Shown here in pieces: positions 5,275 through 12,536 of a DNA stretch of 64,000 nucleotides (positions are counted from its first letter, which is position 1; every line of letters starts with the position of its first letter). The translations under genes were made by a program, and so were the position numbers. The notes below the pieces were generated by a model. That model saw only the letters and a program-made list of their open reading frames with translations, was not told the origin of the DNA and did not search any database. Origin of the DNA: Rhizobium ecuadorense (GTDB taxonomy: Bacteria > Pseudomonadota > Alphaproteobacteria > Rhizobiales > Rhizobiaceae). The stretch lies in contig NZ_LFIO01001107.1 of the NCBI RefSeq assembly GCF_001187535.1, forward strand, positions 310,001-374,000, read 5' to 3'.

Positions 5275-5739
5275 TTAGGGGACGACCAATCCGCCGCGAT
5301 ATTCGAGCATATAGGCTTTCCTGAAGTCGACCATGATGCATTCATTGCCGCTGAACCGCTCGCAGTTCCCTTCGCTGCGATCGAGATAGCGGCCGAGCGG
5401 ATGGTCGAATTCCATGCCGCCGAGAAAGCGTCCCTGCCGATACATGGCTGAAAGTGCCGCCTTGATCACCGCACCGGCGGCAGCGCCGTCGATGAGCTCA
5501 GGCGCAACGATCCAACCGAAATAATTCATCACCCAGACGGGTTCGCCGGCAAACCAGACAACCTCCTGTCCGGCGAAATCGGTGCCGCCGAAATAACTGT
5601 CGAGATAGCGCCAGTCGCCGCGCTCATAGCCGATATCGTGAGCGCCCGGCCGGCAGGGCGCGCGCGCCACGCCGCCGCCGACATAGGTCGCAGCCTTGGC
5701 CTCCACGACGAATTCATTGAGCATCGCAATGTCGAACAT
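5275..5739 (-). CDS. DUF5680 domain protein
   Basis: A 154-residue protein starting MFDIAMLNEFVVEAKAATY at 5739, with a good GGAG ribosome site before it. The segments FVVEAKAATYVGGG, RPGAHDIGYERGDWRYLDSYFGG and GEPVWVMNYFGW match the DUF5680 domain as I know it, often found alone or fused to an XRE-type DNA-binding domain. No DNA-binding domain is present here. The final part (CERFSGNECI) carries two cysteines. The function is unknown. It converges on lolD with a 8-base gap and no clear terminator between. Confidence 0.8.
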   Translation of the reverse strand: MFDIAMLNEFVVEAKAATYVGGGVARAPCRPGAHDIGYERGDWRYLDSYFGGTDFAGQEVVWFAGEPVWVMNYFGWIVAPELIDGAAAGAVIKAALSAMYRQGRFLGGMEFDHPLGRYLDRSEGNCERFSGNECIMVDFRKAYMLEYRGGLVVP

Positions 5740-5979
5740 GCCGTTCTCCTCTCGACCGGATGCTGGCAAAGATGCTGTGGCATGTAAAGAACAAAAACAG
5801 AACGGAAGCCAAAAACAGGCGGTCGCCGTGAGAGGCGGTCGGGCGCTCGGGCAGCGTGTCCGAACCGTCACGGATCGGGAAGGGGAGGAGCCGCCCAATC
5901 GGATCGCTCGCTGCCGCCTGCCGATTCGCAATGCGCGTTTCGGGTTTTTCAAACGCAAGAAAGAAGGAAAAGATTCCTG

Positions 5980-6003
5980 TTGACAATGGAACATACATCG
6001 AAC
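5980..6003 (+). promoter_or_regulatory. LexA-controlled promoter (SOS box) of the 28-codon gene
   Basis: TTGACA (5980-5985) is a consensus -35. Immediately after it lies GAAC-ATACATC-GAAC (5989-6003), a perfect alphaproteobacterial LexA box (GAAC-N7-GAAC) placed in the -35/-10 spacer. A weak -10 (CAAATT, 6003-6008) would lie at 17-nt spacing. The next start codon is at 6037. Confidence 0.7.
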
Positions 6004-6036
6004 AAATTGAAAACATAACGAGTAAAGGAGAGCCAA

Positions 6037-6123
6037 ATGACTGACATGATCCGTGATATCGCAGCATTCACCTCCATCGCAATGTTCGTTGCCAGCTTCT
6101 CGCTCATCGTCATGGCGATCTAA
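6037..6123 (+). CDS. Small SOS-regulated membrane peptide, 28 residues (SidA-like candidate)
   Basis: An ATG at 6037 preceded by TAAAGGAG opens a 28-codon frame ending TAA at 6121-6123. The peptide starts MTDMIRDIAAFTS and continues as one hydrophobic helix to the end (AMFVASFSLIVMAI). Three things argue that it is real: the strong ribosome site, the LexA box and -35 just upstream, and a perfect hairpin right after the stop. Size, topology and regulation recall Caulobacter SidA (29 residues, SOS-induced, inhibits the divisome proteins FtsW/FtsI). I cannot show sequence homology, so the function is inference. It is not fused to or in operon with dnaE1, which starts 117 bases further. Confidence 0.72.
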   Translation: MTDMIRDIAAFTSIAMFVASFSLIVMAI

Positions 6124-6133
6124 AGTTTTCAGG

Positions 6134-6158
6134 GGACCGCATGGCAATCATGCGGTCC
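6134..6158 (+). terminator. Hairpin after the 28-codon gene
   Basis: GGACCGCATG (6134-6143) pairs perfectly with CATGCGGTCC (6149-6158) over a 5-nt loop, 10 bases after the stop. No U-tract follows, so it may be a Rho-dependent end or a stabilising 3' structure. Confidence 0.5.
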
Positions 6159-6240
6159 GGACGCGGGACTTCTTCTGGACATCATCGCCCTCTATGCCGA
6201 CAATGCGTTCGATTCATTCGGGTGATTGGGAAGGCATGAC

Positions 6241-9200
6241 ATGGCGGATACGGCAAAGGGTTCTACGGGTGAGGCGATCGGCGGCACGCCGGGCTTCATC
6301 CACCTGAGGGTCCACTCCGCCTATTCGCTTCTCGAAGGCGCCTTGCCGCTGAAGAAGATCCTATATAAGGCGACCGGCGACAGCCAGCCGGCGATCGCCA
6401 TCACCGACACCAACAATCTGTTCGTCGCGCTGGAATTCTCCCAGAAGGCGATGGATGACGGCCTGCAGCCGATCATCGGCTGCCAGGTCTCGATCGACAT
6501 GGAAGACGGGCTGGAAACGGAAAAGCGCGGCGGCCAGCAGGCGCTGGTCAAGCTGCCGTCGATCGTTCTTCTCGCTGCCACGGATGCCGGTTACGAACGG
6601 CTCGTCGATCTCGTCAGCCGCGCCTATCTCGGCGGCGACAGCAACCAGTCTATCCATATCCGTGCCTCCTGGCTGGAGGAAGCCGGCACGGAAGGGCTGA
6701 TCGCCCTGACCGGCGCCCTGACCGGGCCCGTCGACGCGGCGATCAGGGAGGGCCATCCCGCGCAAGGGGAGGCCCGGCTGCTGACGCTGAAACGTCTTTT
6801 CGGCGACCGGCTCTATGTCGAATTGCAGCGGCACGGCACCTACGACAAACGTCACGAGCAGAAGATCATCGCGCTTGCCTATGCCCATGACCTGCCGCTG
6901 GTTGCCACCAACGAGGCCTTCTTTCCGACACGCGACGATTACGACGCCCATGATGCGCTGATGGCGGTCGCCCACAATGCCATCGTCTCCGACGACAGCC
7001 GCTTTCGCCTGACGCCGGACCATTATCTGAAGAGCCGGGCCGAGATGGCCAAACTCTTCGCCGATCTGCCGGAAGCGCTGGAGAACACGATCGAGATCGC
7101 CAGGCGCTGTTCCTTCGTGCTGAAGACGCGAAAGCCGATCCTGCCGCGCTTCACCGGTGCGACCGACGATGCCGAGGAGGCCGAACGCGCCGAGGCGAGC
7201 GAGTTGCGCCGCCAGGCGGTGGAAGGGCTGGACATGCGGCTTGCAACGCTCGGCATGTCGCCGGGTTACGAGGAGAAGGAATATCGCGAGCGGCTGGATT
7301 TCGAACTCAGCGTCATCGAACGCATGCGTTTCCCCGGTTACTTCCTGATCGTTGCCGACTTCATCAAATGGGCCAAGCAGCATGACATTCCGGTCGGTCC
7401 CGGCCGCGGTTCCGGCGCTGGTTCCCTGGTCGCCTACGCTTTGACGATCACCGACGTCGATCCGCTGCGGTTTTCGCTGCTTTTCGAACGCTTCCTCAAT
7501 CCGGAACGCGTCTCGATGCCGGACTTCGACATCGACTTCTGCCAGGACCGCCGCGAAGAGGTGATCCGCTACGTCCAGGCCAAGTATGGCCGCGAGCAGG
7601 TGGCGCAGATCATCACCTTCGGTTCGCTGCAGGCGCGCGCCGCCCTTCGCGACGTCGGCCGCGTGCTTGAGATGCCCTACGGCCAGGTCGACAAGATCTG
7701 CAAGCTGGTGCCGAACAATCCGGCCAATCCGACGCCGCTCTCCAAAGCGATCGAGGAGGAGCCGAAGCTGCAGGAAGAGGCGGCGAAGGAGCCGGTCGTC
7801 GCGCGCCTGCTCGACATTGCCCAGAAGATCGAGGGGCTTTACCGGCATGCCTCGACGCATGCCGCCGGCATCGTCATCGGCGACCGCCCGCTGTCCAAGC
7901 TGGTGCCGATGTACCGCGATCCGCGCTCCGACATGCCTGTCACCCAGTTCAACATGAAGTGGGTGGAGCAGGCCGGCCTCGTCAAATTCGACTTCCTCGG
8001 CCTGAAGACGCTGACGGTCCTGAAGGTCGCCGTCGATTTCGTTGCCAAGCGCGGCATCAATGTCGATCTCGCGGCCATTCCGCTGGACGACAAGATAACC
8101 TACGAAATGCTGTCGCGCGGTGAGACGGTCGGCGTGTTCCAGGTGGAAAGCGCCGGCATGCGCAAGGCGCTGATCGGCATGAAGCCGGACTGCATCGAGG
8201 ACATCATCGCACTGGTGGCGCTTTACCGCCCGGGTCCGATGGAAAACATCCCGACCTACAATGCCCGCAAGCACGGGGACGAAGAGCTGGAATCGATCCA
8301 TCCTATGATCGACCACCTGCTCAAGGAAACCCAAGGCGTCATCGTTTACCAGGAACAGGTGATGCAGATCGCCCAGGTCCTGTCCGGCTACTCGCTTGGA
8401 GAAGCCGATCTTCTGCGCCGCGCCATGGGCAAAAAGATCAAGGCCGAGATGGACCAGCAGCGCGAACGCTTCGTCGTCGGCGCGGTCAAGAACGGCGTAT
8501 CGAAGCCGCAAGCCGACAATATCTTCGAGTTGCTGGCGAAGTTCGCCAATTACGGCTTCAACAAGTCGCATGCCGCCGCCTACGCCATCGTCTCCTACCA
8601 GACGGCCTATATGAAGGCGCATTATCCGGTCGAATTCCTCGCCGCCTCGATGACGCTCGACATGTCCAACACGGAAAAGGTCAATGATTTCCGCCAGGAT
8701 GCCAAGCGCCTCGGCATCGAGGTGATCGCCCCCTCGGTGCAGACTTCCTTCCGCCATTTCCAGACCGGCGACAACCGCATTTATTATGCGTTGGCCGCCC
8801 TCAAGGGCGTCGGCGAATCCGCCGTCGACCATATCGTCGAGGTGCGTGGCGATAAGCCTTTTGCCGGCATCGAGGATTTTTGCCTGCGCATCGATCCGCG
8901 CCAAGTCAACCGCCGCGTGCTCGAAAGCCTGATCTTTGCCGGCGCCTTCGATTGTTTCGGCACCGACCGCGCCCAGTTGTCAGCCGGCCTCGACCGCATC
9001 CTCGGTTATGCCCAGCGCGCCCAGGAAAACAAGCTGAGCGGCCAGTCGGACATATTCGGCAGCACTCTGACCTCGGGACCTGAAAAAATTTCCCTGCCGC
9101 CGTTTTCGCCCTGGCTTGCCTCCGAGCGGCTGCTCAAGGAATTTCAGGTGCTGGGCTTCTACCTCACCGCACATCCGCTCGATTCCTACAACAACCTCCT

Positions 9201-9738
9201 GCAGAAGATGCGGGTGCAGACCTTTGCCGAATTTTCCCAGGCGATCAAACAGGGCGCCTTCAATGCGCGCCTCGCCGGCACCGTCATTTCGAAGCAGGAG
9301 CGCAAGACCCGCACCGGCAACAAGATGGGCATCATCGTCTTTTCCGATTCCTCCGGCCAGTTCGAGGCGGTGCTGTTTTCAGAAATGCTCAACCAGTATC
9401 GCGACGTGCTGGAGTCGGGGAAATCCTTCGTGCTGACCGCGACGGGGGAGGAGCGGCCGGAGGGCATCGGCCTGCGCATCCAGACGATCCAGTCGCTGGA
9501 GGAAAAATCGCTGCAGATGCAGAAGGCGTTGCGCGTCTATGTCAGAGATTCCGGGCCGCTGAAGATGGTCGCCGGCCATCTCAACGCCAAGGGCGACGGC
9601 CTCGTTTCCTTCATCGTCATCAAGGAGGATGGCAAACGCGAGGTGGAAGTGGCGCTGGCGGAGAAATACCGCATCACCCCTGAGATCGCCGCCGCGCTTC
9701 GCGCCGCCCCCGGCGTCGTCGATGTCGAGCTTGTCTAG
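6241..9738 (+). CDS. dnaE: DNA polymerase III alpha subunit (replicative, DnaE1 type)
   Basis: A 1165-residue replicative polymerase. The ATG at 6241 is preferred over an in-frame TTG at 6226 because GGGAAGG sits 7-8 bases before it. The N-terminal PHP domain is recognisable (HLRVHSAYSLLEGA near residues 21-34). The palm carries GPGRGSGAGSLVAY and the catalytic-aspartate motif PDFDIDFC (about 427-434). The tandem helix-hairpin-helix region and a C-terminal OB fold (LAGTVISKQERKTRTGNKMG onward) follow. Length and the full PHP domain fit DnaE1, not the shorter DnaE2/ImuC mutagenesis paralogue. It lies between the SOS-type peptide gene and a convergent transpeptidase gene. Confidence 0.96.
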   Translation: MADTAKGSTGEAIGGTPGFIHLRVHSAYSLLEGALPLKKILYKATGDSQPAIAITDTNNLFVALEFSQKAMDDGLQPIIGCQVSIDMEDGLETEKRGGQQALVKLPSIVLLAATDAGYERLVDLVSRAYLGGDSNQSIHIRASWLEEAGTEGLIALTGALTGPVDAAIREGHPAQGEARLLTLKRLFGDRLYVELQRHGTYDKRHEQKIIALAYAHDLPLVATNEAFFPTRDDYDAHDALMAVAHNAIVSDDSRFRLTPDHYLKSRAEMAKLFADLPEALENTIEIARRCSFVLKTRKPILPRFTGATDDAEEAERAEASELRRQAVEGLDMRLATLGMSPGYEEKEYRERLDFELSVIERMRFPGYFLIVADFIKWAKQHDIPVGPGRGSGAGSLVAYALTITDVDPLRFSLLFERFLNPERVSMPDFDIDFCQDRREEVIRYVQAKYGREQVAQIITFGSLQARAALRDVGRVLEMPYGQVDKICKLVPNNPANPTPLSKAIEEEPKLQEEAAKEPVVARLLDIAQKIEGLYRHASTHAAGIVIGDRPLSKLVPMYRDPRSDMPVTQFNMKWVEQAGLVKFDFLGLKTLTVLKVAVDFVAKRGINVDLAAIPLDDKITYEMLSRGETVGVFQVESAGMRKALIGMKPDCIEDIIALVALYRPGPMENIPTYNARKHGDEELESIHPMIDHLLKETQGVIVYQEQVMQIAQVLSGYSLGEADLLRRAMGKKIKAEMDQQRERFVVGAVKNGVSKPQADNIFELLAKFANYGFNKSHAAAYAIVSYQTAYMKAHYPVEFLAASMTLDMSNTEKVNDFRQDAKRLGIEVIAPSVQTSFRHFQTGDNRIYYALAALKGVGESAVDHIVEVRGDKPFAGIEDFCLRIDPRQVNRRVLESLIFAGAFDCFGTDRAQLSAGLDRILGYAQRAQENKLSGQSDIFGSTLTSGPEKISLPPFSPWLASERLLKEFQVLGFYLTAHPLDSYNNLLQKMRVQTFAEFSQAIKQGAFNARLAGTVISKQERKTRTGNKMGIIVFSDSSGQFEAVLFSEMLNQYRDVLESGKSFVLTATGEERPEGIGLRIQTIQSLEEKSLQMQKALRVYVRDSGPLKMVAGHLNAKGDGLVSFIVIKEDGKREVEVALAEKYRITPEIAAALRAAPGVVDVELV

Positions 9739-11188: not shown

Positions 11189-12484
11189 TTAGTGATCGCG
11201 CTTGCCGCTGCCGAAGGTGTAGCCGGTTTCGACAGTGTTCTTGCCGAACTTGTCGCGCAGCTTGTCCATCGCCGCTTCGGCCGCCGCCCGCCGCCCCGAC
11301 TGCCGGTCGATGAGGTCGGGCGGATCGGCGCGTGCGGCATCGCCGAGATCGCTGACGCCGATGCCGAGCAGCCGGAACTTCGTGCCGTCGGTCTCCTTTT
11401 CGAGAAGCTCGAGCCCGATGCGAAAGATCCGGTCGGTAAGCTGGGTCGGGTCTTCGAGCTTGCGGTTGCGCGTCCGTATCTTGAAGTCTGCGGTCTTCAT
11501 CTTCAGGACCACGGTCTGGCCGGCGATGTCGTTTTTCTTCAGCCGCCAGGCGACCTTTTCCGAAAGATCGCGCAGGATCGGGACCAGATCGTCATAACGC
11601 CAGATGTCTTCGAAGAAGGTGGTCTCGGATGAAACGCTCTTGGCCGCATCGTTGAGATGCACTTCACGGTCGTCGATCCCGCGCGACAGCCGGGCGAGCC
11701 GCTGGCCGATGCTGCCGTAACGGCGCATCAGATCGTTCTCCTCCATCTGCTGCAACTGGCCGATGGTGCGGATGCCATCCGCCTCCAGCGTCGCCGCAAA
11801 GGCCTTGCCGACGCCCCAGATCGTGGTGACCGGACGCGGCGCCAGGAACTCGACGGCTTCTTCGCGGCCGATGACGGAAAAGCCACGCGGTTTCTGCAGG
11901 TCAGAGGCGACCTTGGCGAGGAATTTGCAATAGGAAAGCCCGACCGAAACGCTGATGCCGATTTCCTTTTCGACCCGGCGGGCGAATTTGGCGAGCGTGC
12001 GGGCCGGCGGGTCGTGATGCAGCCTCTCGGTGCCGCCTAGCTCCAGGAAGGCCTCGTCGATCGACAGCGGCTGCACCAGCGGCGTCAGATCCTGCATCAT
12101 GGCGCGCACCTGCCGTCCGACCCGGGCATATTTCTCCATGTCGGGACGAATGACGATCGCTTCGGGGCACGCTTCCAGCGCCTTGAACATCGGCATCGCC
12201 GAACGCACCCCGTGGATGCGGGCGATATAGCAAGCGGTGGAGACGACGCCGCGTTTGCCGCCACCGATGATCACCGGCTTGTCGGCAAGTTCAGGATTGT
12301 CGCGTTTCTCGACGGCCGCATAGAAGGCGTCGCAATCGATATGCGCCAGCGTCAATGCGTAGAGCTCTCGATGGCGTACCAGCCGCGGGCTGCCGCAGGA
12401 CACGCAGCGGCGCGCCTCGCCCTTCTGCTCGGCAAGGCAGTCGCGACAGAAGCCGGGTGTCTTGTCGGGCGCGGGCGTCATCAT
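11189..12484 (-). CDS. dinB: DNA polymerase IV (Y family) with N-terminal zinc ribbon
   Basis: A Y-family translesion polymerase, about 431 residues from the ATG at 12484. The frame is open to an ATG at 12511, but that codon lies inside the -10 hexamer and upstream of the LexA box, so it cannot be on the mRNA. A four-cysteine ribbon (C13-x2-C16 and C27-x2-C30) precedes the polymerase; E. coli DinB has none. Catalytic motifs are [13 protein letters not shown] (about 48-60) and [10 protein letters not shown]. The HhH thumb and little finger follow. The SOS box directly upstream supports damage induction. Confidence 0.93.
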
Positions 12485-12486
12485 GA

Positions 12487-12536
12487 GAACAAAGATTGAA
12501 CGCCGCGACATTACGCCCTAAGCTTCCGAGTCTCAA
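12487..12536 (-). promoter_or_regulatory. dinB promoter with LexA box
   Basis: On the minus strand TTGAGA (12536-12531), exactly 17 nt, then TAATGT (12513-12508), followed by GTTC-N7-GTTC (12501-12487; GAAC-AAAGATT-GAAC on the plus strand). The LexA box therefore covers the transcription start. It ends 2 bases before the ATG chosen for dinB, implying a very short leader. Confidence 0.8.

Follow-up and report, generated by a model that had tools for sequence, protein, structure and literature searches.

The locus upstream of dnaE

Directly upstream of dnaE in this Rhizobium, and divergent from a gene for a DUF5680 protein, lies a short frame for a hydrophobic peptide of 28 residues, preceded by a LexA box and followed by a hairpin. 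The features are given below with the basis of each; positions are those of the window, that is, the whole stretch of 64,000 nt that was analyzed.

5275–5739, minus strand: gene for a DUF5680 protein, the divergent neighbor (PF18931, E 6.4e-23)
5789–5803, no strand assigned: second LexA box, GAACAAAAACAGAAC, 49 nt 5' of the DUF5680 gene (motif scan; in the same place in 24/25 same-genus loci)
5980–5985, plus strand: −35 hexamer TTGACA of the putative SOS promoter (sequence; TTGAC is kept across the genus loci)
5989–6003, plus strand: LexA box GAACATACATCGAAC (motif scan; conserved in the orthologous loci)
6025–6030, plus strand: Shine–Dalgarno sequence AAGGAG, 6 nt 5' of the ATG (sequence; conserved in relatives)
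6037–6123, plus strand: sidA-like gene for a predicted single-helix membrane peptide of 28 amino acids, MTDMIRDIAAFTSIAMFVASFSLIVMAI, with ATG at 6037 and stop codon TAA at 6121–6123 (conservation; mean dN/dS about 0.12)
6134–6158, plus strand: 10-bp hairpin GGACCGCATG-GCAAT-CATGCGGTCC after the stop (perfect stem, 6134–6143 with 6149–6158)
6176–6204, plus strand: promoter-like TGGACA-N17-GACAAT (promoter scan; conserved in the genus alignment)
6241–9738, plus strand: dnaE (alpha subunit of DNA polymerase III), the constant neighbor on the downstream side (Pfam; synteny)

An earlier note on this DNA had described a complete SOS unit, and every part that it named was found in place: the consensus −35, the perfect LexA box (an exact GAAC-N7-GAAC), the strong ribosome site, the 28-codon frame for one hydrophobic helix, and the 10-bp hairpin after the stop. 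Two points are weaker than the note put them: no good −10 hexamer lies at 17 nt from TTGACA, where the closest sequence is CAAATT, and the hairpin has no run of T behind it. The hairpin, with a predicted RNA folding energy of −20.9 kcal/mol (z −2.5), is kept, with G-U changes, across most of the genus and is missing in one subclade. A role as intrinsic terminator was rejected, as the T-run is absent and the terminator scan was negative. The TGGACA-N17-GACAAT element between the peptide gene and dnaE is probably dnaE's own promoter.

Exact GAAC-N7-GAAC sequences occur seven times in the window, against 2.2 expected, and 190 times in the whole genome, where a reversed control motif occurs 142 times. 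On these counts an exact box by itself is weak evidence, and the matter was decided by conservation. Among 56 orthologous loci, 52 carry an exact box between −70 and −15 relative to the start codon, and the remaining four have near-match boxes in an unchanged position. An exact box of the same kind, GAACACATATGGAAC, lies 61 nt upstream of the lexA gene of the same genome, and a LexA box in a degenerate form lies upstream of recA. At seven loci, from several genera, two exact boxes stand in tandem before the peptide gene, 11 nt apart and with one GAAC in common, an arrangement that suggests tighter repression.

Conservation of the peptide

The peptide was found by sequence search in all 36 same-genus genomes. 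Within the family, a simple search recovered it in 61 of 109 genera and a profile search in 270 of 299 genomes (91/99 genera); among the listed family genomes without a profile match, several are very small (1.0–2.0 Mb). In the 56 loci, which were read in detail, a Shine–Dalgarno sequence precedes the ATG and dnaE follows in every case. The conservation in other Rhizobium and the synteny before dnaE, which the earlier note had proposed to check, were both borne out. In codon comparison, pairwise dN/dS averaged 0.12 within the genus and 0.17 within the family, the pairs being non-independent. Taken together, the conservation of the peptide, the box and dnaE and the low dN/dS indicate a translated peptide gene under selection.

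With 28 amino acids and a hydrophobic body, the product is predicted to form one transmembrane helix, in the same size class as the SidA of Caulobacter, and in profiles the helix shows a pattern, [RK][DE]xxAxxSxxxF, that is conserved across orders. No model of NCBIfam or Pfam matched when these were searched with the peptide. In some family genomes, two to four SidA-like profile matches were found on separate contigs, which suggests paralogues or mobile copies.

The gene had been said by the earlier note to be undescribed in Rhizobium, and this has to be qualified. Ribosome profiling of Sinorhizobium meliloti reported a translated small ORF, sORF25, in the 5' UTR of dnaE1, as a possible uORF (PMC10117765). 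It lies in the same position as the Rhizobium peptide gene and, by position alone, is presumably the same gene; the report makes no link to the SOS response or to SidA.

Relationship to the SidA of Caulobacter

Named Caulobacterales and Hyphomicrobiales genomes were retrieved with a Caulobacter CtrA query, and dnaE was then located in each. A peptide of this type was present in 41 of the 41 Caulobacter genomes searched. In the Caulobacter loci inspected it is usually of 29 amino acids, has degenerate LexA boxes, and is followed directly by dnaE; where the neighbor on the other side was visible, it is a divergent gene for an inosine-uridine nucleoside hydrolase (PF01156, E 7.8e-78). In C. crescentus, sidA is CCNA_02004 (PMC11034885), the nucleoside hydrolase is CCNA_02005 (PMC3667746), and dnaE is CC1926 (PMC1839093). 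These locus tags put sidA between the nucleoside hydrolase and dnaE, from which gene order we deduce that the peptide in the Caulobacter slot is SidA, a 29-residue inner-membrane protein acting on FtsW (PMC4211646). The Rhizobium gene therefore occupies the same chromosomal slot, directly upstream of dnaE, as is evident from the synteny and the locus tags of these papers (PMC11034885, PMC3667746, PMC1839093).

The Rhizobium peptide thus resembles C. crescentus SidA (CCNA_02004) in having about 29 residues, one hydrophobic helix, a LexA-type control that is predicted from its exact, conserved promoter box, and a place immediately 5' of dnaE. It also shares with the SidA-position peptide, in register, R6-[DE]7, A10, S13, and F17. 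The two are only about 25% identical over their length, however, and the C-terminal half has diverged; the LexA box is exact in Rhizobium and degenerate in Caulobacter, and the divergent neighbor is the DUF5680 gene in the former and the nucleoside hydrolase gene in the latter.

Used alone as a query, the Rhizobium peptide found no match in the Caulobacter genomes, and the pairwise similarity is modest (p about 0.01–0.04 against the shuffled Caulobacter peptide), so the link needs profiles and synteny. Profile–profile comparison (hhalign) aligned the Rhizobiaceae and Caulobacterales peptides in register with an E value of 2.6e-5. The comparison of Rhizobiaceae with other Hyphomicrobiales gave 3.7e-11, and that of other Hyphomicrobiales with Caulobacterales gave 5.4e-6; in each of the three, none of 200 column shuffles that kept the composition of head and body reached the observed score. 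Intermediates are found as well: a hydrophobic ORF of 28–34 codons, with a LexA box before it, lies 5' of dnaE in Afipia, Tardiphaga, Rhodopseudomonas, Devosia, Microvirga, Alsobacter, Methylobacterium, Aurantimonas, Hoeflea, Phenylobacterium, Brevundimonas, and others. In an unbiased draw at the level of the order (Hyphomicrobiales), box and hydrophobic ORF preceded dnaE in 18 of 29 loci, one of which looks like a chance ORF, and in a draw at the level of the class in 13 of 89. Neither control, be it the motif in reverse or the other strand, gave an exact match, with 0/29 for the order and 0/89 for the class; only exact boxes were counted, since boxes with one mismatch yield a few control matches.

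The likeness to SidA that the earlier note had seen in size class, topology, and control therefore extends to the same dnaE locus, the same class of operator, and an in-register similarity through intermediates. The slot, the intermediates, and the profile match together make the Rhizobium gene a positional orthologue of sidA, beyond a mere analogue.

Proposed function, breadth, and other LexA boxes

We consider it quite likely that the unit is the Rhizobium counterpart by descent of sidA, predicted from its sequence to encode a LexA-repressed, damage-induced membrane peptide that holds FtsW/FtsI/FtsN inactive. LexA bound to GAACATACATCGAAC, in and beside the promoter spacer, would repress a promoter of the sigma-70 type until DNA damage activates RecA and LexA is cleaved, after which the strong ribosome site would allow the 28-residue peptide to be made. 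The peptide would span the inner membrane as a single helix, with its short charged N terminus (TDMIRD) probably in the cytoplasm, and by holding the late divisome complex inactive it would delay septation until the genome is repaired. As a peptide of the SidA kind, it would bind FtsW/FtsN and stop division if overproduced. In Caulobacter, SidA leaves Z-ring assembly undisturbed and is suppressed by mutations in ftsW and ftsI, and the filamentation of a lexA deletion is owed to sidA (PMC4211646, PMC12700426). The FtsW of the Rhizobium genome retains F145 and A246, where SidA/DidA suppressors map, whereas position 31, at which the SidA-specific suppressor A31K was reported, is a Met and is not conserved; the contact surface may therefore have co-diverged. 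C. crescentus also has DidA, which, as would hold for the Rhizobium peptide by analogy, is a damage-induced division inhibitor of the single-helix type; DidA acts on FtsN/FtsW/FtsI but has 71 residues and is independent of the SOS response (PMC4211646).

That the ORF might instead be a leader peptide or uORF that tunes dnaE in cis, the peptide itself being inert, is suggested by the translation of the S. meliloti ORF within the annotated dnaE1 5' UTR (PMC10117765), by its invariable place 5' of dnaE, and by the post-stop hairpin, which could be regulatory. Such a leader would be expected to show hardly any selection on the peptide apart from particular codons, but the amino acid constraint is strong (mean dN/dS 0.12–0.17) and the [RK][DE]xxAxxSxxxF pattern persists between orders. 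Moreover, the LexA operator stands at the ORF's own promoter, dnaE has a separate promoter-like site 3' of the ORF, part of the genus lacks the hairpin, and some genomes have extra profile matches elsewhere. We regard this explanation as unlikely and a pure uORF as disfavored; a cis role on dnaE may be an additional function. It is less probable still that the peptide is an SOS-induced membrane depolarizer that promotes dormancy without a block of the divisome, as TisB, a small single-helix membrane peptide under SOS control, would exemplify; a toxin of this type has an antisense RNA partner. DinQ is another such peptide (PMC3567139). Size class, single helix, and SOS control would agree with this, but not the locus and the in-register similarity that are common to the SidA-position peptides. 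Finally, small membrane peptides at dnaE could have arisen independently in Rhizobiales and Caulobacterales, which would account for the weak pairwise similarity between the extremes; given the intermediates with the same layout of box, ORF, and dnaE and the in-register profile matches, we consider this very improbable.

One gene of 28–34 residues, with a conserved operator and locus, can be traced from Caulobacter to Rhizobium, and these observations suggest one tiny, largely overlooked checkpoint gene common to many alphaproteobacteria. To our knowledge, SOS-induced division inhibitors are generally viewed as lineage-specific. YneA, SosA, ChiZ, and DivS are Gram-positive or actinobacterial examples; they are membrane proteins directed against proteins of late division, larger than the SidA-like peptide and not known to be related to it in sequence. 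More tentatively, and with somewhat less than even confidence, SidA may be no peculiarity of Caulobacter but the division checkpoint that much of the Alphaproteobacteria inherited for the SOS response, with a fixed place next to the gene for the replicative polymerase and left unannotated for its size; in rhizobia it might serve beyond damage repair, e.g., in blocking the division of bacteroids as they differentiate. A literature search found no paper in which a small ORF of rhizobia is connected with SidA or in which SidA is described from other genera than Caulobacter, although the original SidA paper may already note its breadth. With this gene, the SOS division block of rhizobia and their relatives has a named candidate, and S. 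meliloti sORF25 can be read in a new way; the gene's natural sequence diversity could be used to map how so small a helix inhibits FtsW.

LexA boxes were also seen near two other genes of the window. With its box kept in 24 of 25 same-genus loci, the DUF5680 gene looks like an unrecognized SOS gene in rhizobia. An exact LexA-type box, GAACAAAGATTGAAC (12487–12501), lies at the start of a dinB-like gene (DNA polymerase IV, assigned by eye) at 11189–12511 on the minus strand, whose start codon is uncertain; the box suggests SOS control of this gene, too, in this Rhizobium.
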